The notes under the pieces were generated by a model. The model saw only the letters and a program-made list of their open reading frames with translations, had not been told where the DNA came from and searched no databases. Source: Geodermatophilus amargosae (GTDB lineage: Bacteria > Actinomycetota > Actinomycetes > Mycobacteriales > Geodermatophilaceae). From it: a stretch of 64,000 bases of DNA. The stretch covers positions 1 to 64,000 of the forward strand of contig NZ_FPBA01000016.1 in NCBI RefSeq assembly GCF_900116515.1. The letters run 5' to 3'. A program made the translations under genes and the position numbers. Positions 7,184 to 59,689 of this stretch are shown one piece after another (the first letter of the stretch is position 1; each line of letters begins with the position of its first letter).

Positions 7184-8143
7184 TCAACCCACCCGCGCGG
7201 CGAGGCCGGCCAGCCGGGCGACCAGGAACTCGACGGCCGCGGCGCTGTCCACGGTCTCGGCGACGTCGACCGCGGTGGGGGAGTCCGACACCGACCGGCG
7301 GTCCACCAGCGTCTGCCCGCGCGAGGGCCCGTTGCCGGTGTCGACGACGACGTCGCGGCGGACGGTGCCCAGCGTGCCCGGCGCGATCGCCTCGGTGAGC
7401 GCCAGGGCGTCGTGGACGACGACGCCCGAGGTGCCGTACGCCGTCCGGGCGTGGTCGAGGTACTGCTGCAGGATCGCCGCCGCCGTGGCCCCGACCGGCC
7501 CCGCCGCGGCGAAGCGGGCGACGCCGTCCTCGTCCAGCACGGTGGGGATCGTGACGTCCAGGCCGACGAGCACCGTGGGGATGGTGGAGCCGAGCACCCG
7601 CGCCGCGGCCTCCGGGTCGGACCACACGTTGAACTCGGCCGCGGCGGTGACGTTGCCGCCGCGGCCGGCCGAGCCGCCCATGAGCACCAGCCGGCCGATC
7701 CGCGCGGCCGCCTCGGGATAGGTGCCCAGCAGCAGCGCGACGTTCGTCCACGGCCCGATGGCGGCCACCGTCACCGGCTCGTCGGAGGCCATGAGCAGCT
7801 CGGCCAGCGCGACGACGGCCGGGCGCGGGTCGACCGCGGCGGGGGAGGGCGGCAGCTCCACGCCGCCCAGGCCGGTGACGCCGTGCACGTGCCCGGCGCG
7901 CTCGGGCTGCGGGAACACCAGCGACTCGGCGGCACCCGCCGCCACCGGGACGTCGGAGCGGCCGGCCAGGTGCAGCACCCGCAGCGCGTTGTCCGTCGTC
8001 TGCGGCAGCTCCACGTTGCCGTGCACGGTGGTGACCAGGCGCAGGTCGACCTCCGGGCTGCCCAGCGCCAGGAGGATCGCGAGGGCGTCGTCGATGCCGG
8101 GGTCGGTGTCGATCACCAGGGGTCGCGCAGGGGGAGGAGCCAC
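7184..8143 (-). CDS. inosine-uridine-preferring nucleoside hydrolase
   Basis: A 319-residue nucleoside hydrolase, the normal family length. The N-terminal VIDTDPGIDDALA cluster gives the calcium-binding aspartates. AAEFNVWSDPEAA and VVHDALAL near the C-terminus supply the other metal and substrate residues. It should split the N-glycosidic bond of a purine or pyrimidine ribonucleoside to give base and ribose, so it belongs to salvage or catabolism. The exact substrate cannot be read from sequence. I chose GTG 8143 because the conserved strand begins seven residues later. The gene converges with the GAF-ANTAR gene with a 6-bp gap and is divergent from the ATP-grasp gene at 8183. Confidence 0.9.
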   Translation of the reverse strand: MAPPPARPLVIDTDPGIDDALAILLALGSPEVDLRLVTTVHGNVELPQTTDNALRVLHLAGRSDVPVAAGAAESLVFPQPERAGHVHGVTGLGGVELPPSPAAVDPRPAVVALAELLMASDEPVTVAAIGPWTNVALLLGTYPEAAARIGRLVLMGGSAGRGGNVTAAAEFNVWSDPEAAARVLGSTIPTVLVGLDVTIPTVLDEDGVARFAAAGPVGATAAAILQQYLDHARTAYGTSGVVVHDALALTEAIAPGTLGTVRRDVVVDTGNGPSRGQTLVDRRSVSDSPTAVDVAETVDSAAAVEFLVARLAGLAARVG

Positions 8144-8182
8144 CCGGCCATCCTCGCAACCGGCGTGCGGCAGGATAGCGCC

Positions 8183-9058
8183 GTGCCCGACGTGCTCCTC
8201 GCCAGCTGTGCCGCCGCCGCCGGGAGGGACGAGGACGAGCCGCTGCTGCTCGCCGCACTGGCCGCCGAGGGGCTCGCGGCGTCGTCCGCCGACTGGGCCG
8301 ACGGCGACGTCGACTGGGCCGCCGCGGCCGCCGTCGTGGTCCGGTCGGCCTGGGACTACGCACCGCGCCGCGACGAGTTCCTCACCTGGGCTCGGCGCGT
8401 GGAGTCCGGGACCCGGCTGCTCAACCCGGCCGCCGTCCTGGCCTGGAACACCGACAAGCGCTACCTGCGCGAGCTCGCCGCCACCGGGGTGCCCGTGGTG
8501 CCCACCGCGTGGGCCGAGGAGCCGGGCGGGGTGGACGCCGCCCTGGCCCGCTGGCCCGGCGACGTGGTGGTCAAGCCGGTCGTGTCGGCCGGCGCCCGCG
8601 ACACCGCCCGCTTCTCCTCCGCGGAGCGGGCGGACGCCCGGGCGGCCGCGGGCGGCATCCTGGCGAGCGGCCGGGCGGTCATGGTGCAGCCCTACCTCGA
8701 CCGGCTCGACGCCGAGGGCGAGACCGGCCTCGTCTACCTCGACGGCGCGGCGAGCCACGCGTTCGGCAAGGGCGCCCTGCTGGCGGGGGAGGCACTGGGC
8801 CCGGGCCTGTACGCCGAGGAGGAGATCACCCCCCGCACCGCCACCGCGGAGCAGCAGGCGCTCGGCGACCGCGTGCTGGCGTGGGTGGGGGAGCGGACCG
8901 GCACGGTGCCGCTCTACGCCCGGGTCGACCTCGTGCCCGGCGAGGACGGCGCGCCGCAGGTCATCGAGGTGGAGCTGACCGAGCCGAGCCTGTTCCTCAC
9001 CACCGACGCCGGTGCCGCGGCCCGCCTCGCAGGGGCGGTGCGCGCCCGCCTCAGCTGA
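8183..9058 (+). CDS. ATP-grasp domain protein (RimK/glutathione synthetase-like)
   Basis: A 291-residue protein of the ATP-grasp superfamily, similar to the group that includes RimK, glutathione synthetase and the cycloserine enzyme DcsG. It shows an N-terminal VVVRSAWDYAPRRDEF, the lysine of GDVVVKPVVSAGA, the VQPYLDRL hinge and the metal-binding VDLVPGEDG then VIEVELTEPSLFL. It should join a carboxylate to an amine with ATP. The substrates are not identifiable and there is no biosynthetic partner next to it. GTG 8183 begins right at the conserved first strand. Its end overlaps the convergent permease gene by 8 bp. Confidence 0.82.
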   Translation: MPDVLLASCAAAAGRDEDEPLLLAALAAEGLAASSADWADGDVDWAAAAAVVVRSAWDYAPRRDEFLTWARRVESGTRLLNPAAVLAWNTDKRYLRELAATGVPVVPTAWAEEPGGVDAALARWPGDVVVKPVVSAGARDTARFSSAERADARAAAGGILASGRAVMVQPYLDRLDAEGETGLVYLDGAASHAFGKGALLAGEALGPGLYAEEEITPRTATAEQQALGDRVLAWVGERTGTVPLYARVDLVPGEDGAPQVIEVELTEPSLFLTTDAGAAARLAGAVRARLS

Positions 9059-50122: not shown

Positions 50123-51706
50123 GTGAGTGACGTGCGCGTGGAGGGCCCCGAGGTCGAGCGGGCCGGGGAGGTCCTCACGCCCGAGGCGCTGGAGTTCCTC
50201 GCCGACCTGCAGCGCCGCTTCGGCCCCCAGCGCGACGCCCTGCTGGCCGCCCGGGCCACCCGGCGGGCCGAGATCGCCACCGCCCGCTGGCTGGACTTCC
50301 GCCCGGAGACCGCCGACGTGCGCGACGGGGACTGGCAGGTGCCCCCGCCGCCGCCCGGCCTGGTCGACCGCCGCGTGGAGATCACCGGCCCGACCGAGCA
50401 GAAGATGGCGGTCAACGCGCTCAACTGCGGCGCCGACGTGTGGCTGGCCGACCTCGAGGACGCCAACACCCCGCACTGGCGCAACGTCGTCACCGGGCAG
50501 CTGGTGCTGCGCGACGCCGTCCGCCGGCAGCTCGCCTTCTCCACCCCCGAGGGCCGGGAGTACCGGCTCCGGGACGACGGCGACCTGCCCACGATCGTCC
50601 CGCGCCCCCGCGGCTGGCACCTGCCCGAGCGGCACCTGCTGGTCGACGGGCAGCCGGCGGTCGGCGCGCTGGTCGACGCGGGGCTGTACCTGTTCCACAA
50701 CGCCGCCGAGCAGCTCTCGCGCGGCAGCGGCCCGTACTTCTACCTGCCGAAGATGGAGGGCCACCTCGAGGCGGGGCTGTGGAGGCTGGTCTTCGACGCC
50801 GCCGAGCGGTCGCTGGGGATCCCCGAGGGGTCGATCCGCGCCACGATGCTCGTCGAGACCATCCCGGCCGCCTTCGAGATGGAGGAGATGCTGCACGCGC
50901 TGGGCAGCCACGCCACCGGTCTCAACGCCGGCCGCTGGGACTACCTGTTCAGCGTCATCAAGGTCTTCCGCGAGGCCGGGCCGGAGTTCGTGCTGCCCGA
51001 CCGGGCGGCGGTCACCATGACGGCGCCGATGATGCGGGCCTACACCGACCAGCTGGTCGCCGTCTGCCACCGCCGCGGCGCCATGGCCATCGGCGGCATG
51101 GCCGCGGCCATCCCCAGCCGCAAGGACGCCGAGGCCAACGAGCGCGCGCTGGCGAAGGTCCGCGAGGACAAGACCCGTGAGGCCGGCGACGGCTTCGACG
51201 GCTCCTGGGTGGCCCACCCCGACCTCGTCCCGGTCTGCCGCGAGGCCTTCGACGCCGTCCTGGGCGACCGCCCCAACCAGCTCGACCGGCAGCGCCCCGA
51301 GGTGTCGGTGACCGCGTCGCAGCTCCTCGACGTCGCCGGCGTCCCGGGCGGGCGCACGCTGGCGGGTCTGCGGGCCAACGTCGAGGTGGCGATCCGCTAC
51401 CTGGCGGCGTGGCTGGGCGGCAACGGCGCGGTCGGCATCCACGGCCTCATGGAGGACGCCGCCACCGCCGAGATCAGCCGCTCGCAGGTGTGGCAGTGGG
51501 TGCACGCCGGCGTCGAGCTCGACACCGGCGAGACGGTGACCGAGGACCTGGTCCGCCGGGTGGTCGCCGAGGAGGTCGAGAACATCACGACGGGCATCGG
51601 CGAGCTGCCGCACCTCGACGACGCCCGGCGGCTGTTCGAGCAGGTGGCGCTGGCCGACGACTTCCCCGACTTCCTCACCCTGCCCGCGTACGAGCTCATC
51701 AGTTGA
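50123..51706 (+). CDS. aceB: malate synthase A
   Basis: A 527-residue malate synthase that condenses glyoxylate with acetyl-CoA. Type A features: NCGADVWLADLEDANTPHW, GPYFYLPKMEGHLEAGLW, RATMLVETIPAAFEMEEML, GRWDYLFSVIK, GMAAAIPSRKD and the catalytic acid near GIHGLMEDAATAEISRSQVW. The short 45-bp divergent spacer to the uric acid operon suggests joint control, because allantoin breakdown yields glyoxylate. GTG 50123 is the start. The stop overlaps the next gene (TGATG). Confidence 0.96.
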   Translation: MSDVRVEGPEVERAGEVLTPEALEFLADLQRRFGPQRDALLAARATRRAEIATARWLDFRPETADVRDGDWQVPPPPPGLVDRRVEITGPTEQKMAVNALNCGADVWLADLEDANTPHWRNVVTGQLVLRDAVRRQLAFSTPEGREYRLRDDGDLPTIVPRPRGWHLPERHLLVDGQPAVGALVDAGLYLFHNAAEQLSRGSGPYFYLPKMEGHLEAGLWRLVFDAAERSLGIPEGSIRATMLVETIPAAFEMEEMLHALGSHATGLNAGRWDYLFSVIKVFREAGPEFVLPDRAAVTMTAPMMRAYTDQLVAVCHRRGAMAIGGMAAAIPSRKDAEANERALAKVREDKTREAGDGFDGSWVAHPDLVPVCREAFDAVLGDRPNQLDRQRPEVSVTASQLLDVAGVPGGRTLAGLRANVEVAIRYLAAWLGGNGAVGIHGLMEDAATAEISRSQVWQWVHAGVELDTGETVTEDLVRRVVAEEVENITTGIGELPHLDDARRLFEQVALADDFPDFLTLPAYELIS

Positions 51707-52929
51707 TGCTCGGCGACGACGTCTACGCCGAGCTGGACCGCCGGCTCGCGCCGGTCGACGCCGCCCGCGCGGCCGCCTACCCCGGCGAGCGGCCGGGCCG
51801 GCAACCGGTGCACACCTGCTACGTCCCGGTCGACGCCGTCGTCCCCGGCCTGGCCGCCCGGTGGGGCGCCGCCGCCCTGGAAGCGCTCGACGAGCACGGC
51901 CTCCCCGACCTGGGGTACGACGCCGGCCTGCTCGAGCAGGTGCTGCCGCGGGTGCGCGCCAAGCTCGCCGCCGAGCCGGTCGAGGACCTGCGGGTCGACG
52001 CCGAGGACGGCTACCGCGGCCGTCCCGAGGAGGAGGACGACGACGTGCGCCGGGCCGCGGCCGCCGTCGCCGCGGACCTCGCCGACGGCACCGCCCCGCC
52101 GTCGCTCGGCATCCGCGCGAAGTCGCTGGAGGGGCCCACCCGCCGCCGCGGCGTCCGCTCGCTCGACCTCTTCCTGTCCGCCTCCCGCGTGGGGAAGGCC
52201 ACCGTCGTCCTCCCCAAGGTCACCGACGTCGAGCAGGTTCGGGCCTTCCTGCCCGTCCTCGACGCGCTGGAGGACGCGCACGGCGTCGCGCTGGACCTGG
52301 AGCTGCAGGTGGAGACCCCGCAGGCGGTGCTCGGTGCCGACGGCGGGGTGACGCTGGCCCGCATGGTGCACGCCGCCGGCCCGCGGCTGACCGGGCTGCA
52401 CCACGGCACCTACGACTACAGCGCGGCGCTGGGCATCGCGGCGGCGCACCAGTCCTCCGACCACCCCGCGCTCGACCTCGCCAAGCAGCTCATGCAGGTC
52501 GCCGTCGCGGGGACCGGCGCGCGGGCGGTCGACGGGTCCACCAACCTGCTGCCCGTCGGTCCCCGCGAGCAGGTGCACGCCGGCTGGCGGGTGCACGCCG
52601 GGCTGGTCCGGCGGGCGCTGGAGCGCGGCATCTACCAGGGCTGGGACCTGCACCCCGCACAGCTGGTCACCCGCCACGTGGCCACCCAGGCGTTCTTCCG
52701 CGGCGCACTCCCGGCGGCCGCCGCGCGCCTGGCGGCGTACGTGGAGCGGGCCGACGCCGGGGTGCTCGACGAGCCGGCCACCGCGCGGGCGCTGGCCGGG
52801 GTGGTGGTGCGCGGGCTCGACTGCGGCGCCGTCGACGCAGACGAGGTCTCCGCCGCCACGGGCCTGGACCGGGCGACCCTCGACGCGCTGTCCGGACGGG
52901 GTCCGGCACGCCCGGGGGGCAGCGCTTAG
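51706..52929 (+). CDS. CitE/HpcH-aldolase-like protein next to malate synthase
   Basis: A 407-residue TIM-barrel protein of the citrate lyase beta/HpcH family, probably the DUF6986 group of actinobacteria. It shows LRVDAEDGYRGRPEEEDDDV (acidic metal residues), VVLPKVTDVEQVRAF, LELQVETPQAVLGADG and GLHHGTYDYSAALGI. Such enzymes make or break C-C bonds of small acids or CoA esters. ATG 51706 overlaps the malate synthase stop, so they form one operon and may both use glyoxylate. The specific reaction is unknown. Confidence 0.85.
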   Translation: MLGDDVYAELDRRLAPVDAARAAAYPGERPGRQPVHTCYVPVDAVVPGLAARWGAAALEALDEHGLPDLGYDAGLLEQVLPRVRAKLAAEPVEDLRVDAEDGYRGRPEEEDDDVRRAAAAVAADLADGTAPPSLGIRAKSLEGPTRRRGVRSLDLFLSASRVGKATVVLPKVTDVEQVRAFLPVLDALEDAHGVALDLELQVETPQAVLGADGGVTLARMVHAAGPRLTGLHHGTYDYSAALGIAAAHQSSDHPALDLAKQLMQVAVAGTGARAVDGSTNLLPVGPREQVHAGWRVHAGLVRRALERGIYQGWDLHPAQLVTRHVATQAFFRGALPAAAARLAAYVERADAGVLDEPATARALAGVVVRGLDCGAVDADEVSAATGLDRATLDALSGRGPARPGGSA

Positions 52930-52950
52930 GCTGCCCTCCGTGGTGGCGCG

Positions 52951-55900
52951 GTGACGGGGGACGCGCCCGGCTCCCTGTTCGCCGGCGGTGGGGAGGTGGG
53001 CCGGGAGATGGCCGCCCGCGACTGGGCGGACACCCCGCTCGGACCCTCCGGGCAGTGGCCCTCGGCGCTGCGCAACCTCGTGCGCATCGTCCTGACCTCG
53101 CGGTTCCCGATGTGGGCCGCATGGGGTCCGGAGCTGGCGTTCTTCTACAACGACGCGTACCGGCGCGACACCCTGCAGGCCAAGCACCCGTGGGCACTGG
53201 GCCGCCCGGCGTCCGAGGTGTGGGCCGAGATCTGGGACGACGTCGGCCCGCGGGTGCAGTCGGTCCTCGAGACCGGGGTCGCCACCTGGGACGAGGACCT
53301 GATGCTCTTCCTGGAGCGCAGCGGGTACCCGGAGGAGACCTACCACACCTTCTCCTACAGCCCGGTCGCCGACGACGACGGCCGCACCGCCGGGTTGCTC
53401 TGCGTCGTCACCGAGAACACCGACCGGGTGCTCGCCGAGCGGCGGATGGCCAGCCTGCGCGACCTCGCCACGGCGATCGCCGCGACCCGGACCGAGGCCG
53501 ACGTGCTCGCCGCCGTCGGCGGGCAGCTGGCCCGCAACGACGCCGACCTGCCCTTCTCGGCCACCTACCTGGTCGACGACGACGGGTGCGCGCGGCTGGG
53601 CACCACGACCGGGCTGACCCCGGGCTCCCCGGCCGCGCCGGAGACCCTCGCCGACGACGGGGTCTGGCCGCTGTCCCGGCTGCGCGCCGGCGAGCAGGCC
53701 GTCGTCGACCTCGCCGGGATCCCCGGACTGCCCACCGGCGCCTGGGACCGGCCGCCGTCGCGGGCGCTCGCGGTGCCGGTCGCCTCCCCGGTCGCGGACA
53801 CCGCCGCGGTCGCCGGCTTCCTGGTCGTGGGGCTCAACCCGCACCGCGCCCTCGACGAGGCCTACGCCGGATTCCTCTTGCTGGTGGCCGGCCAGATCGC
53901 CTCGGGCCTGGCCAACGCGGGCAGCCACGCGGCCGAGCGGCGCCGCGCGGAGGCCCTGGCCGAGCTCGACCGCGCCAAGACCGACTTCTTCAGCAACGTC
54001 AGCCACGAGTTCCGCACCCCGCTGACGCTGATCATGGGCCCGGTCGCGGAGCTGCGGGCCTCGGCGGTGGCCACCGCCGACCCGCGGGTGGCCGAGGAGC
54101 TCGAGGTCGTCGAGCGCAACGCGCTGCGGCTGCAGAAGCTGGTCAACACCCTGCTCGACTTCTCGCGCATCCAGGCCGGCCGCATCGACGCGCGGTTCGA
54201 GCCGGTCGACCTCGCCACGACCACCGCGGAGCTGGCCAGCGTCTTCCGCTCCGCCGTCGACCGGGCGGGCCTGCGGCTGACCGTCGACTGCCCGCCGCTG
54301 TCGCAGCCGGTGCACGTCGACCGGGACATGTGGGAGAAGGTCGTCCTCAACCTGCTCTCCAACGCCCTGAAGTTCACCTTCGAGGGCGGCATCACCGTGC
54401 GGCTCCGGCAGGGCGAGGACGCCGCGGTCCTCACCGTCGCCGACACCGGCACCGGCATCCCCGCCGCCGAGCTGCCCCGGCTGTTCGAGCGGTTCACCCG
54501 CGTGTCCGGCGCCCGCTCGCGCTCCGGTGAGGGCAGCGGCATCGGGCTGGCGATGGTCGAGGAGCTGGTCGGCCTGCACGGCGGCTCCGTGGAGGTGCAG
54601 AGCGCCCCTGACGTCGGGACGACCTTCACCGTCACCGTGCCGCTGGGCACCGCGCACCTGCCCGCCGACCGCCTGGCCCCCGCGGTGGCCGAGCCGCCGG
54701 CGATCTCGCCCGGCGCCACGCCGTTCGTCGCCGAGGCGCTGCGCTGGCTGCCGTCGGCGGGCGACGACGCCCCCGCGGCCGCCCCCGGTTCGCAGGGCAG
54801 CCGCGCCGGCCGTGTGCTGGTGGCCGACGACAACGCCGACGTGCGCGACTACGTGGTGCGGCTGCTCGCGCCGGTGCACGAGGTCCGTGCGGTCGCCGAC
54901 GGCCAGGCGGCCCTGGAGGCTGCCCTGGCCGACCCGCCCGACCTCGTCGTCAGCGACGTGATGATGCCGCGGCTGGACGGCGTGCAGCTGCTCGCCGCCC
55001 TGCGCGCCGACGCCCGCACCTCCCGCGTCCCGGTGGTCCTGCTCTCGGCCCGCGCCGGCCAGGAGTCCGCCGTCGAGGGGCTGGCCGCCGGGGCCGACGA
55101 CTACCTCGTCAAGCCCTTCTCCGCCCAGGAGCTGCTCGCCCGCGTCGACGCCCACCTGCAGCTCGGCCGCGCCCGCCGCGAGGCCGAGGAGCGGTTCACC
55201 ACGATGGCCGACCTCGCGCCCGCGCTGATCTGGGTCGCCGACGGCACCGGCCGGCGGGAGTTCCTCAACGCCGCCTGGACGACGTTCACCGGCCGCCCGA
55301 TGGAGGCGGAGCTCGGCGACGGGTGGCGGGCCGGGCTGCACCCCGGCGACGCCCGGCGCTACGCCGGCACGGTGGCGGCCGCGACGGCGGCGGGGGAGGG
55401 CTGGGAGGTCGAGTTCCGGCTGCGCCGCGCCGACGGCGCCCACCACTGGCTGCTCGAGCGCGCGGTGCCCATCGGCGGCACCGCCGGGGGCTGGGTGGGC
55501 AGCTGCACCGACATCAACGCCCGCTACCGGGAGACCGAGCGGCAGACGCTGCTCGCCGAGGTCGGCACGGCGCTCGACCGCGAGACCGAGGTCGAGCGGC
55601 AGCTGGCCGGCCTGGCGCGGCTGGTCGTCGACCGCCGCCTGGCCGACGTCTGCACCGCGCGGGTCGTCGGGCCGGACGGGCGGCTGCGCTACGCCGGCCT
55701 CGCGGGCGTCGAGGACACCGCCCGGCCGGAGCCGCACGGCGGGCTGGGCGTCGAGGTGCTCGACACCGGCGCGCCGGTGCTGCGCCGGCACCTGTCCGGC
55801 GCCGGCGACGGCGGTGTCCGGCTGGACCTGCACTCGGCGCTGCTGGTGCCGCTCACCGTCCGCGGCCGGGTGCGCGCGGTCCTGGCGCTCGGGCGCCGCG

Positions 55901-58011
55901 ACGACGCCCCGCCCTTCCACGACGACGACCGCGCGCTGGCCGAGGAGATCGCCGCCCGCGCCGCGCTGGCCCTCGACAACGCGCTGCTGCTGGCCGACGA
56001 GCGCGCCGCGGCGCGGCGGCTGGGCCTGCTCCAGCGGGTGACCGCCGAGCTCTCGGCCGCCACCACGCCGGTCGAGGTGGCCGAGGCGGCCGCCGCCTCG
56101 GTCCTCTCGCTCACCGGGGACGGCAGCCGGGTCGGCGTCTACGAGGTCGACGACGCCGGCCGCGCCCTGCGCCTGCTCGCGCAGGCCGGCCCCCCGGCCG
56201 ACGACCGGCACCGGTGGGCCGAGATCCCGCTCGGCACACCGGTGGCGGTCACCACCGCGGTCACCGGACGTCGCCCGGTGTGGATCGACGACGTCCCGGA
56301 CCGGGTGGCCGGCGCACCCGGGTCCGTCGTGGCGCTGCCGCTGCTGGCCGCCGGCCGCGTGGTCGGCGTGGTGGGCGTGGGTGCCGCCGAGGCGGGCCGG
56401 CTGGGTGTGGCCGAGCGCGGCATGCTGCTGGCGGTGGCCGAGCAGTGCGCCTCGGCGCTGGACCGGGCCCGCCTCTACCGCGCCGAGCAGGACATCGCCT
56501 CGACCCTGCAGCTGAGCCTGCTGCCCGCCGCGGTGCCCCGGCTGGAGCGGCTCGCGCTGGCCGCCGAGTACCTGCCCGGCGCCGCGGGCACCTCGGCCGG
56601 CGGCGACTGGTACGACGTCGTCGAGCTGGGCGGGAGCCGGGTGGCCATCGCCGTCGGCGACGTCGTCGGCCAGGGCCCGGCGGCCGCCGCCGTGATGGGC
56701 CAGCTGCGCAGCGCGCTGTCGGCGGCGCTGCTGCAGGGTGACTCCCCGGCGGAGGCCCTGGAGCTGCTCGACCGGTTCGCCGCCCGGCTGCCCGGCGCGC
56801 TGGCCTCGACCGCGGCCTGCCTGGTGCTCGACTGGGCGGCCGGCACCGTGCGGTGGGCCCGCGCCGGCCACCCCCCGCCGCTGCTGGTGACCGACGGCGC
56901 GGCGACCTTCCTCGAGGAGGGCGGAGGTGCGGTCCTCGGCGCGCCGGGCCGCCGGCCGTACGCCGAGGGCGGCACCACGGTCAAGCCGGGGACGACGCTG
57001 CTGCTCTACACCGACGGCCTGGTCGAGCGCCGCGGCGAGTCCCTCGACACCGGCCTGCGCCGCGTCGCCGAGGCCGCCGCACGGCTGGGCGGCGCCGAGC
57101 CGCGCCGGCTGACCCGCGCGCTGCTGGCCGAGGTGCTCGACGACTCGGCACTGCCCGACGACGTCGCGGTCATCGCCGCCCGCCTCACCCCCGAGCCGCT
57201 GCACGAGGTGCTGCGCGCCGAGCCGGCCCGGCTGCGCGGGGTGCGGCGCCGGGTGACCGCCTGGGCGCTGGCCGCCGGGCTCACCGGCGACTCCCTCGAC
57301 GACCTGCAGCTGGCCCTCGGCGAGGCGCTGGCCAACGCCGTCGAGCACGCCTACGCCGCCACCGCCGGGGAGGGGCGCTGCGAGTACCGGCTCGAGCGGA
57401 CCGCCGACGGCGGCGTCGACGTCTGCGTGCGCGACGAGGGCGTGTGGCGCCCGGCGCCGGCCGACAAGGGGTACCGCGGCCGCGGACTGGAGCTGATCTC
57501 CGCGCTGGCCACCGACGTCGAGGTCGGCCGCACTATCGACGAGGGCGGCGGCGAGGGGGCCGGCACCACGGTGCACTTCCGCTTCGTCCCGGCCGGACCG
57601 GGGCCGGACGAGCCGGTGGTCCGGGGCGACGGCGCGCGGCCCGACGCCGGGGCGGCCCGGTTGACGGTGGACCGCGGGCCCGGGAGCGTGCGGCTGGCGC
57701 TCTCCGGCGAGCTCGACCTGGTCGCCGCCCCGGGCCTGCGCGCCGAGGCCCTGCGCGCCCTCGACGAGATCCCCGGCGGCACGCGGGTGCTGGTCGACCT
57801 GGAGGCGGTCACCTACCTGGCCAGCGCCGGCGTGGGGTTGCTGCTCGAGCTGCTCCGGGTGGCGAGCGCGCGCTCGGTGGTCGTCCGGGTGCGCACCCGC
57901 GAGGGGTCCGCGCCGGCCCGCGTGCTCGCGCTGGCCGGGGTGGACCCCGGCGCCGGGCCGGGCCGGGCGGACGGCCCGCGGGGGAGCCGGTACACCCCCC
58001 GGGGGACCTGA
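52951..58011 (+). CDS. composite signalling protein: hybrid histidine kinase, PP2C phosphatase, RsbW-like kinase and STAS on one chain
   Basis: A 1686-residue soluble signalling protein. Domains in order with rough residues: PAS-like sensor (20-150), GAF (165-320), histidine kinase with His352 in SNVSHEFRTPLT and N-box NLLSNALKF (340-575), response regulator receiver with Asp669 in VVSDVMMP (620-740), PAS (750-860), two GAF domains (870-1020, 1035-1180), SpoIIE-type PP2C with GGDWYDVVEL and LLYTDGLVERRG (1190-1410), RsbW-like HATPase with LGEALANAVEHAYA and GRGLELIS (1415-1550), and a STAS domain with the phosphorylatable serine in TYLASAGVGLLL (1565-1665). All key residues appear intact. Phosphorelay input and a full partner-switching output are thus combined. 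GTG 52951 starts 21 bp after the aldolase-like gene. Confidence 0.93.
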   Translation: MTGDAPGSLFAGGGEVGREMAARDWADTPLGPSGQWPSALRNLVRIVLTSRFPMWAAWGPELAFFYNDAYRRDTLQAKHPWALGRPASEVWAEIWDDVGPRVQSVLETGVATWDEDLMLFLERSGYPEETYHTFSYSPVADDDGRTAGLLCVVTENTDRVLAERRMASLRDLATAIAATRTEADVLAAVGGQLARNDADLPFSATYLVDDDGCARLGTTTGLTPGSPAAPETLADDGVWPLSRLRAGEQAVVDLAGIPGLPTGAWDRPPSRALAVPVASPVADTAAVAGFLVVGLNPHRALDEAYAGFLLLVAGQIASGLANAGSHAAERRRAEALAELDRAKTDFFSNVSHEFRTPLTLIMGPVAELRASAVATADPRVAEELEVVERNALRLQKLVNTLLDFSRIQAGRIDARFEPVDLATTTAELASVFRSAVDRAGLRLTVDCPPLSQPVHVDRDMWEKVVLNLLSNALKFTFEGGITVRLRQGEDAAVLTVADTGTGIPAAELPRLFERFTRVSGARSRSGEGSGIGLAMVEELVGLHGGSVEVQSAPDVGTTFTVTVPLGTAHLPADRLAPAVAEPPAISPGATPFVAEALRWLPSAGDDAPAAAPGSQGSRAGRVLVADDNADVRDYVVRLLAPVHEVRAVADGQAALEAALADPPDLVVSDVMMPRLDGVQLLAALRADARTSRVPVVLLSARAGQESAVEGLAAGADDYLVKPFSAQELLARVDAHLQLGRARREAEERFTTMADLAPALIWVADGTGRREFLNAAWTTFTGRPMEAELGDGWRAGLHPGDARRYAGTVAAATAAGEGWEVEFRLRRADGAHHWLLERAVPIGGTAGGWVGSCTDINARYRETERQTLLAEVGTALDRETEVERQLAGLARLVVDRRLADVCTARVVGPDGRLRYAGLAGVEDTARPEPHGGLGVEVLDTGAPVLRRHLSGAGDGGVRLDLHSALLVPLTVRGRVRAVLALGRRDDAPPFHDDDRALAEEIAARAALALDNALLLADERAAARRLGLLQRVTAELSAATTPVEVAEAAAASVLSLTGDGSRVGVYEVDDAGRALRLLAQAGPPADDRHRWAEIPLGTPVAVTTAVTGRRPVWIDDVPDRVAGAPGSVVALPLLAAGRVVGVVGVGAAEAGRLGVAERGMLLAVAEQCASALDRARLYRAEQDIASTLQLSLLPAAVPRLERLALAAEYLPGAAGTSAGGDWYDVVELGGSRVAIAVGDVVGQGPAAAAVMGQLRSALSAALLQGDSPAEALELLDRFAARLPGALASTAACLVLDWAAGTVRWARAGHPPPLLVTDGAATFLEEGGGAVLGAPGRRPYAEGGTTVKPGTTLLLYTDGLVERRGESLDTGLRRVAEAAARLGGAEPRRLTRALLAEVLDDSALPDDVAVIAARLTPEPLHEVLRAEPARLRGVRRRVTAWALAAGLTGDSLDDLQLALGEALANAVEHAYAATAGEGRCEYRLERTADGGVDVCVRDEGVWRPAPADKGYRGRGLELISALATDVEVGRTIDEGGGEGAGTTVHFRFVPAGPGPDEPVVRGDGARPDAGAARLTVDRGPGSVRLALSGELDLVAAPGLRAEALRALDEIPGGTRVLVDLEAVTYLASAGVGLLLELLRVASARSVVVRVRTREGSAPARVLALAGVDPGAGPGRADGPRGSRYTPRGT

Positions 58012-58103
58012 GGAGCACCCGGGGGGCGCCGTCCCGGGGACGTGTTCCACAATCGAGGCGACCGGGCCGGGGCAGTCCCGGCCCACAGTCGGTCGAGGGG
58101 CCA

Positions 58104-59153
58104 GTGGATCCAGTGGCTGAGGCCTCCGCCTCGCAGGCGGAGCAAGGGAGCGGCGCGGCCGCGCGGGGCACCCGCGCGCCGTCGTCGGGCTCGGCCTTCG
58201 TGCACGGCGCCGCGCTCGTCCACTCCCCCGGCGAGGCGGTCGGGGTGGCCGCCGCCTACGTCGACGAGGGCCTGCGGGCCGGGGACCTGGCGGTCCTCGC
58301 CTGCGCGCCGGAGACCGCGGCGGCCGTCCGCCGGGCGCTGGGCATGCGGGCCCGCGAGGTCGAGGAGGACGCCCGCATCTGCCTCGTCGGCGCCCGCGCC
58401 CCCGACGCCATGGCCGTCATCCGGCAGCGGGTCGAGCAGGCCGCCACGAGGGGGTCCGGCCGGCTGCGGATCCTCGCCGAGCCCCTGTTCGGGTCCGACC
58501 CCCGGCGCTGGCGGGAGGTCCGGCGGTACGAGGCGGCGGCGAACGCGCTGGTGGACGGCGCGCCGGTGACGTGCCTGTGCGTCTACGACCGCGAGCACCT
58601 GCCGGCCGAGGTCCTCGGGACCGCGCGGCACACCCACCCGGAGCTGTGGATGGGCGGCGTGCGGGTCGCGAACTCCGAGTACCGGGACCAGACGGCCGTG
58701 CTGCGCGACCTGGGCGCGGCCCGCGAGCCGGTGGAGGCGGGGGAGCCGGTCCTCGTCCTCGACGGCGTGCCGGCGCTGGCCGTCCTGCGCGGGGAGCTGC
58801 GGCACACCTTCCACGCCGTCGTCCCCGACGCCGACCAGCGCGCCGACCTCCACCTGGGCGTGAGCGAGGTGGCGGCCAACGCCTTCCGGCACGGACGGCG
58901 GCCGATCTCCGCGCGCGTGTGGGCCGACGGCTCCACCGTCGTCTGCACGATCTCCGACTCCGGCACCACCTTCAGCGACCCCCTCGCGGGCTTCGTGCCG
59001 GCGCACGGCGACGACCTCGCCGCCGGCGGCATGGGCCTGTGGCTGGCCCGCAAGCTCTGGGACTCCGTCGACCTGGTGGCCGGTCCGCAGGGGCTCACCG
59101 TCCGGCTGGCCACCGGTCTGGTGCGCCCCGACGAGGGGCGCGGCGCGGCTTGA
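58104..59153 (+). CDS. MEDS-domain anti-sigma-type ATPase
   Basis: A 349-residue protein with an N-terminal MEDS/DcmR-type sensory domain (about 30-190: FVHGAALVHSPGEAVGVAAA, RICLVGARAPDAM, VTCLCVYDREHLPAEVL) and a C-terminal RsbW-like HATPase (about 230-340: LHLGVSEVAANAFRHGRRP, CTISDSGTTFSDP, GGMGLWLARKL). It is likely a sensor that controls a sigma factor or a STAS antagonist. It follows the composite signalling gene by 92 bp and may be its partner. GTG 58104 or GTG 58113 can start it. Confidence 0.88.
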   Translation: MDPVAEASASQAEQGSGAAARGTRAPSSGSAFVHGAALVHSPGEAVGVAAAYVDEGLRAGDLAVLACAPETAAAVRRALGMRAREVEEDARICLVGARAPDAMAVIRQRVEQAATRGSGRLRILAEPLFGSDPRRWREVRRYEAAANALVDGAPVTCLCVYDREHLPAEVLGTARHTHPELWMGGVRVANSEYRDQTAVLRDLGAAREPVEAGEPVLVLDGVPALAVLRGELRHTFHAVVPDADQRADLHLGVSEVAANAFRHGRRPISARVWADGSTVVCTISDSGTTFSDPLAGFVPAHGDDLAAGGMGLWLARKLWDSVDLVAGPQGLTVRLATGLVRPDEGRGAA

Positions 59154-59185: not shown

Positions 59186-59689
59186 GTGGAGGATGCCGTG
59201 GACCTCATCCTCGAGCAGTGGTCCCGGGAGCGCCCGGACCTCGACTGCTCGCCCATGGGGATCATCGGCCGGATCACGCAGCTGCAGCGGGAGGTCCACC
59301 TCGCCCAGCGTGCGACGTTCGCGCGGCACGGCCTCGACGCGCCGTCCTTCGACGTCCTCGCCGCCCTCCGCCGGGCCGGGCAGCCCTACCAGCTGACGCC
59401 CACCGCGCTCATGCGGACGGCGCTGGTCACCTCGGGGGCGATCACCCAGCGGCTGGACCGGTTGGAGGAGAAGGGGCTGATCACCCGGACGCGCAGCGAG
59501 GCCGACGGGCGGGCCGTCGTCGTCACCCTGACCGCGGCCGGCCGGGAGGCCCTCGACGCCGCGCTGCCCGACCACCTGGAGACCGAGCGCGGCCTGCTCG
59601 CCGGCCTGTCGGAGGACGAGCTGGCCCAGCTCGCCTGCCTGCTGCGGCGGTTCCTCGTGACGCTGGGCCGCGTTCCGCAACGTCCCTGA
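59186..59689 (+). CDS. MarR-family transcriptional regulator
   Basis: A 167-residue winged-helix regulator. Its N-terminal helices are followed by the DNA-binding unit LTPTALMRTALVTSGAITQRLDRLEEKGL and the wing RTRSEADGRAVVVTLTAAG. The ligand and targets are unknown. GTG 59186 is used; GTG 59198 is possible. It starts 32 bp after the MEDS-HATPase gene. Confidence 0.92.
   Translation: MEDAVDLILEQWSRERPDLDCSPMGIIGRITQLQREVHLAQRATFARHGLDAPSFDVLAALRRAGQPYQLTPTALMRTALVTSGAITQRLDRLEEKGLITRTRSEADGRAVVVTLTAAGREALDAALPDHLETERGLLAGLSEDELAQLACLLRRFLVTLGRVPQRP

Follow-up and report, generated by a model that had tools for sequence, protein, structure and literature searches.

A two-component sensor and a partner switch, both complete, are joined in one protein chain in Geodermatophilus amargosae. 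The gene lies in the window, by which we mean the whole stretch of 64,000 nucleotides analysed here (contig NZ_FPBA01000016.1, positions 1 to 64,000). Two-component systems and partner switches are the two main phosphate routes by which bacteria convert a signal into gene expression, and this core gene of Geodermatophilus unites both in one chain. Fused partner switches are already known; what is new is the hybrid kinase added to the chain and the assembly of the protein from swappable halves. Our best explanation, to which we give as a whole a probability of roughly 0.55, is a self-contained chain in which the receiver would govern the balance between the kinase and PP2C activities on Ser1625 of the STAS domain, and which would free a SigF-type sigma factor.

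Domain organization and catalytic residues

The gene is read from a GTG at 52951 to the stop at 58011 without internal stop codons, and the order of the domains from the frame check and Pfam search is PAS-GAF-HisKA-HATPase-receiver-PAS-GAF-GAF-PP2C-RsbW kinase-STAS (Table 1). The initial annotation, which had proposed a single chain, was exact in domain order, coordinates and strand. The boundaries of the N-terminal PAS and GAF domains were estimated by hand; both have Pfam matches, and the positions given for them are approximate. CHASE3 was not among the Pfam matches of the protein, and no NCBIfam family was above its cut-off among the matches listed (25 of 170). In each of 16 hundred-codon stretches along the gene, GC3 was between 0.95 and 1.00, therefore no frame break lies between the receiver and PP2C halves. 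The region is also open on the minus strand, owing to its GC of 73-81%: an antisense frame of 2229 aa (51397-58086) covers the whole gene, the tested part of it had no Pfam family at E<=0.01, and an antisense gene was rejected.

Table 1. Features of the fused gene and of the genes behind it (residues of the 1686-aa protein, positions in the window)
Feature	Residues	Position	Strand	Basis
Whole gene, GTG start, hybrid histidine kinase and PP2C-RsbW-STAS partner switch	1686 aa	52951..58011	+	Frame, Pfam
N-terminal PAS-like sensor	~30-170 (approximate)	53038..53460	+	Second Pfam PAS_4 stretch
N-terminal GAF	~172-325 (approximate)	53464..53925	+	Pfam GAF_2 stretches
HisKA, phospho-acceptor His352 at 54004-54006	342-410	53974..54180	+	Pfam
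HATPase_c of histidine kinase	457-566	54319..54648	+	Pfam, residues
Receiver, phospho-acceptor Asp669 at 54955-54957	622-732	54814..55146	+	Pfam, residues
Middle sensors PAS, GAF, GAF	755-860, 873-1008, 1038-1171	55213..56463	+	Pfam
PP2C/SpoIIE phosphatase	Pfam 1228-1412 (2e-45), fold from ~1190	56518..57186	+	Pfam, residues, model
RsbW-like anti-sigma/serine kinase	HATPase_c_2 1422-1531 (5e-28)	57214..57543	+	Pfam, residues, fold
STAS anti-sigma antagonist, Ser1625 at 57823-57825 in LASAG	STAS_2 1582-1665 (6e-10)	57694..57945	+	Pfam, residues
Next gene, MEDS sensory domain and HATPase_c_2 (RsbW-like) kinase, 92 nt after stop		58104..59153	+	
MarR regulator, neighbour of fused gene		59186-59689		

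The key residues named in the initial annotation were all correct by residue check, namely His352, Asp669, GGDWYD (1217-1222), EALANA (1458-1463) and LASAG (1623-1627). The front half has the features of a hybrid histidine kinase in one chain, that is, the HisKA histidine, the N and G boxes of HATPase_c, and the receiver Asp and Lys, and the back half has those of the Rv1364c type, with PP2C, RsbW-type kinase and STAS in order and with PP2C acidic residues, N-box Asn and STAS serine intact. E353 and T356 follow His352 as an ExxT motif, which is typical of histidine kinases with additional phosphatase activity. Conservation was counted over 37 related loci of the same architecture (group A, see below), where lower denominators mean contig ends or unaligned sequence. 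His352 was kept in 35/35, Asp669 and K721 in 37/37, and each of the PP2C acidic residues 1219, 1222, 1237, 1355, 1403 and 1404 in 37/37; the RsbW-type kinase kept N1462 and D1495 in 36/36 and E1458 in 35/36 (one Ala), and the STAS domain kept S1625 and D1589, the latter being the position that we equate with SpoIIAA Asp23, in 36/36. Among the key residues of the group A loci there was no sign of an inactive domain. The initial annotation had named HATPase and STAS domains unable to bind ATP or to be phosphorylated as fatal to its proposal; the sequences gave no hint of these, N1462 and S1625 being invariant.

The fold of residues 1186-1686 was modelled with AlphaFold2 from 34 sequences, i.e., the window and 33 of the 37 group A loci (pLDDT 86.8, pTM 0.83). 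Among solved structures, the best match was 3ke6, which covers RsbU-RsbW of Rv1364c (340 residues aligned with Z 30.2, rmsd 7.6 and 36% identity; Foldseek 5e-29), and it was also the best PDB match by sequence (1e-49). The RsbW part of the model aligned over 115 residues with B. subtilis RsbW (6m37_C; Z 17.2, rmsd 1.8). The model shows that the PP2C-RsbW part of the protein has a predicted Rv1364c-like fold.

Distribution of the architecture

We scanned 84,980 species genomes and retained the top 80 of 571 related stretches, therefore the counts of distribution are lower bounds; loci were assigned to two groups by frame length and match range. Group A (37 of the best 80; L031-L067) has the whole domain order, which answers the call of the initial annotation to seek the same architecture in actinobacteria. 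Its hosts are Geodermatophilus, Blastococcus, Trujillonella, Actinomycetospora and one Pseudonocardia, with Geodermatophilus/Blastococcus and Actinomycetospora making up most. All 25 Geodermatophilus genomes searched (own included) have a matching region; its frame is at least 1693 aa long in 23 of them and is truncated at a contig end in the other two. When the class was sampled evenly (246 genomes), the 350-aa receiver-PAS piece found matches at 1e-50 in 27 genomes, the own one among them, and of these only the window's own frame exceeded 1500 aa. That a frame error or mis-assembly fused two genes, a failure foreseen in the initial annotation, has a negligible chance and was rejected, since all five catalytic domains lie in one frame in 35/37 group A loci from other assemblies (the remaining two run off their contigs), since GC3 is even all along the gene, and since the region recurs throughout the genus.

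Group B (43 of the best 80; L068-L110) consists of hybrid kinases, mostly of about 1390 aa, that end after the RsbW domain, and is found in Streptomyces, Micromonosporaceae (Micromonospora), Mycobacteriaceae (Mycobacterium), Streptosporangiaceae and others. The STAS domain is encoded separately in this group: in 41/43 loci a STAS frame follows the main stop on the same strand at a distance of at most 120 nt, and in 39 its in-frame start codon, usually ATG, overlaps that stop. The exceptions are L083, in which no STAS was found, and L109, the Mycolicibacterium litorale copy, in which the main frame is interrupted and the STAS lies further on. This downstream STAS supports, by analogy, that the kinase and STAS of the fused protein are partners. 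Derivation of the group A STAS from the separate STAS of group B was unsupported, the back halves being of different lineages.

For S. coelicolor, PMC8346170 reports that SigB is activated by SCO7325, a homologue of RsbV, and lists SCO7328 as a homologue of RsbW, and SCO7327 appears in PMC9739842 as an orphan hybrid kinase whose cascade is unclear. Our guess, from the locus numbers only, is that SCO7327 is a group B protein; the fused gene suggests a possible role for such orphan hybrid kinases without a known response regulator, SCO7327 among them if the guessed kinship is right.

Origin of the two halves

The two halves of the protein differ in their kinship, the kinase-receiver half being sister to that of group B. 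Compared by domain with 19 group B proteins, the kinase and receiver of group A are 66-76% identical and the N-terminal PAS-like sensor is 70-76% identical, whereas BLAST finds hardly any counterpart in group B for the PAS and two GAF domains that follow the receiver (a few weak matches of 23-26 bits) and the PP2C and RsbW domains are only 42-48% and 28-39% identical. Four proteins of Pseudonocardia and Actinokineospora without a histidine kinase (L161-L164) are closer to the window there, with 53-58% identity in PP2C and 48-59% in RsbW. Two of these loci encode large non-mycobacterial PP2C-RsbW-STAS proteins with several PAS/GAF sensors (L162:679-5007 (-), L164:2211-5585).

For the trees, 15 group A sequences out of 38, the window's among them, and 19 group B sequences out of 43 were picked by hand for spread, with Rv1364c left out. 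In the PP2C-RsbW tree, group A joined L161-L164 (support 99/98) and group B stood apart (100/99), and holding A and B together was rejected at p 0.025. In the kinase-receiver tree, 14/15 group A and 19/19 group B sequences formed one clade (100/98), the Pseudonocardia L062 fell outside it, and a single clade for all 15 group A sequences was weakly rejected at p 0.048. These tests were framed after the trees had been seen, both p values are modest, and both trees have long branches. The simplest reading of the sequences is that the fused gene is a chimaera, with its junction just after the receiver, of two halves that had evolved separately; the chimaera was possibly made twice. The alternative is that the front half was lost in L161-L164.

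The front half is also joined to other outputs. It is followed by PAS-PP2C-RsbW in group B, whose STAS gene is separate, by RsbW alone in L119 and, by BLAST, in L172-L174, by PP2C-RsbW in L171 and L177, by PAS-PP2C-RsbW in L178 and L179, and, by BLAST, by PP2C in L175 and L176. The protein of L119 (3539-6379) is a 947-aa paralogue in which the same kinase-receiver front is joined directly to an RsbW-like kinase, without PP2C. In two loci of the same genus (L169:3214-6999, L170:1485-6365), the cassette of kinase and receiver stands between a CheB methylesterase domain in front and PAS or GAF domains behind. These two lack PP2C and RsbW, therefore partner switches are not the only outputs of the front half, and this counts against our best explanation. 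Judged by its relatives, the front half behaves as a cassette that is joined to partner switches in most cases but not in all.

Comparison with known systems

The initial annotation started from the premise that phosphatase, kinase and STAS antagonist are separate proteins in known stress pathways, which is incorrect, as Rv1364c already fuses them. According to excerpts of PMC9138534 and PMC10950880, Rv1364c of M. tuberculosis is a single PAS-PP2C-kinase-STAS chain whose own kinase phosphorylates STAS Ser600 and whose own phosphatase dephosphorylates it. Like the window protein, it is a single polypeptide with PP2C followed by kinase and then STAS; however, this regulator of SigF has 653 aa, one PAS and no histidine kinase or receiver, whereas the window protein has 1686 aa and a full hybrid kinase in front. 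The G. amargosae genome itself encodes two further PP2C-kinase-STAS fusions without a histidine kinase (L120:4663-7596, a 978-aa frame; L118:5430-7658, 743 aa). Since Rv1364c and these fusions already join the three domains, what differs here is the hybrid kinase in front. In a 2022 review (PMC9138534), fusions of the Rv1364c type are stated to occur only in pathogenic mycobacteria, and our results correct this statement.

The group B proteins are like the window protein in the kinase-receiver front and also carry PP2C and RsbW, but differ in their length, in the separate STAS downstream (YLDSAG-type) and in the lineage of PP2C-RsbW. In proteobacteria, HsbR-HsbA/CrsR-CrsA and SypE-SypA have a receiver that toggles kinase and PP2C activity on a STAS protein, as proposed for the window protein. 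HsbR/CrsR join receiver, PP2C and kinase in one protein, and phosphorylation of the HsbR receiver turns the STAS kinase into a STAS phosphatase acting on HsbA (PMC6482189); SypE, too, changes from a kinase into a phosphatase of SypA when its receiver is phosphorylated (PMC10120452). In these systems, likened here by their description, the STAS and the histidine kinases are separate. A histidine kinase stands above a receiver-PP2C protein acting on the antagonist in RsbK-RsbY of the SigB switch of Bacillus cereus (PMC4574943) and, in excerpts of PMC10950880, in RsfS-RsfR of the SigF switch of M. smegmatis. Both differ from the window protein in that kinase, phosphatase, anti-sigma and antagonist are all separate, and RsbK and RsfS carry CHASE3, for which the window protein has no Pfam match, and are reported to be membrane-bound. 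Kinases of the RsbK type (RsbKMY) are recognized by CHASE3, a methylatable S-helix and adjacent RsbY and RsbM; the genes next to the fused gene encode the MEDS-kinase and a MarR regulator. No description of a hybrid histidine kinase with a whole PP2C-kinase-STAS switch in the same chain was found in the open-licence literature searched, which covers only part of what is published. An article by de Been et al. from 2011 on RsbK-type kinases may describe related domain orders.

Proposed mechanism and alternatives

By analogy with these systems, an internal phosphatase/kinase/STAS switch governed by a phosphorelay is likely. The protein would be cytosolic, and signals at the N-terminal PAS-GAF would set the histidine kinase, whose His352 would hand its phosphate on to the receiver residue Asp669 within the chain or the dimer. 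The receiver and the PAS-GAF-GAF sensors behind it would then shift the back half between two opposite activities on one substrate, and the sign of this control may be either. The RsbW-like domain would phosphorylate Ser1625 and the PP2C domain would remove the phosphate, presumably in cis. Unphosphorylated STAS would engage an anti-sigma kinase, either the RsbW domain of the chain itself or an RsbW/UsfX encoded elsewhere, and this engagement would free the putative target, a SigF-type sigma factor. The repeated joining of the front half to partner-switch outputs argues that receiver and switch work together. On the other side, receiver phosphorylation lowers the phosphatase activity of RsfR (excerpts of PMC10950880), which counts against this explanation. 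Only tentatively do we propose its more specific form: a closed single-chain device in which phosphorylation of Asp669 may toggle kinase and phosphatase activity on the attached STAS, which may then sequester an unlinked anti-sigma factor, the whole having been built from a mobile kinase-receiver cassette and a pre-existing fused switch, perhaps twice (in the main lineage and in Pseudonocardia L062).

The attached STAS may instead not be the substrate, a reading that we find rather doubtful, with RsbW and PP2C acting in trans on a separate STAS protein and the tethered STAS serving as a docking or autoinhibitory piece that occupies RsbW. The LASAG motif of the initial annotation is present and its serine is invariant, but that annotation missed the residue before it, which is Ala in 36/36 group A loci and Asp in 41/41 of the separate STAS proteins of group B (YLDSAG and similar). 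This Ala for Asp counts against our best explanation and favours a STAS that is not a substrate, as does the variability of the domain, which is conserved less than any other catalytic piece (39-67% identity in group A, nearest relative excluded). In SipA of Actinoplanes, which has a kinase and a STAS, the kinase binds both its own STAS and that of another protein (excerpts of PMC10733313), which points the same way. Against this stand the invariance of Ser1625 and D1589 and the precedent of Rv1364c, which phosphorylates its own STAS.

It is unlikely that the halves are only tethered, so that Asp669 would be a phosphate sink or a donor to other proteins and the back half would obey its own PAS-GAF-GAF sensors. 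Mere tethering is favoured by back halves with STAS that Pseudonocardia and Actinokineospora encode without any histidine kinase (L161, L162, L164). It is also favoured by the RsbK receiver, which is described as inhibiting its kinase and not as relaying (PMC4574943); this receiver weighs against our best explanation as well. But the front half is joined directly behind the receiver to several partner-switch outputs, and in L177 only about 35 residues separate receiver and PP2C.

Sigma factor target and neighbouring genes

The initial annotation had placed the output of the switch in an unlinked protein, and this agrees with the gene neighbourhoods. None of the 37 group A loci had a SigF-like gene in its fetched flanks, and a linked sigma factor as target was rejected for these flanks; a SigF-like frame was found in the flanks of 2/43 group B loci (L085, L089). 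The G. amargosae genome has a single SigB/F/G-type sigma factor above the curated cut-off, unlinked to the fused gene, and 12/12 other genomes searched have at least one. As SigBFG factors occur in all genomes searched and none flanks the fused genes, the target is probably unlinked. In the G. amargosae genome, the Rv1364c-like PP2C-RsbW-STAS gene at L118:5430-7658 is divergent from an rsbW-sigF pair (7534-9023), in which rsbW (L118:7534-8028) was called by reading the translation and sigF is the only SigBFG match above the cut-off. SigF thus adjoins its own rsbW and another fused switch, which may already serve it, and this arrangement and the lack of a flanking SigF-like gene both count against our best explanation.

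The MEDS-kinase gene that follows the fused gene is a possible partner. It follows in 25/37 group A loci and in 25/26 loci of the Geodermatophilaceae type, the contig of the remaining one ending inside the gene, and it was found in 0/11 Actinomycetospora/Pseudonocardia loci. Genes for MarR, a ligase-like and a CitE-like protein are also kept downstream (23/37, 23/37 and 20/37 group A loci), so the linkage may be plain synteny, and a conserved partner gene was not upheld. In L051, L055, L062 and L063, the genes on either side are unrelated ones. The fused gene and its relatives offer a direct experimental handle on the control of an anti-sigma switch by a receiver. In two Streptomyces loci of group B (L081, L106), a MEDS domain is joined to STAS downstream instead.
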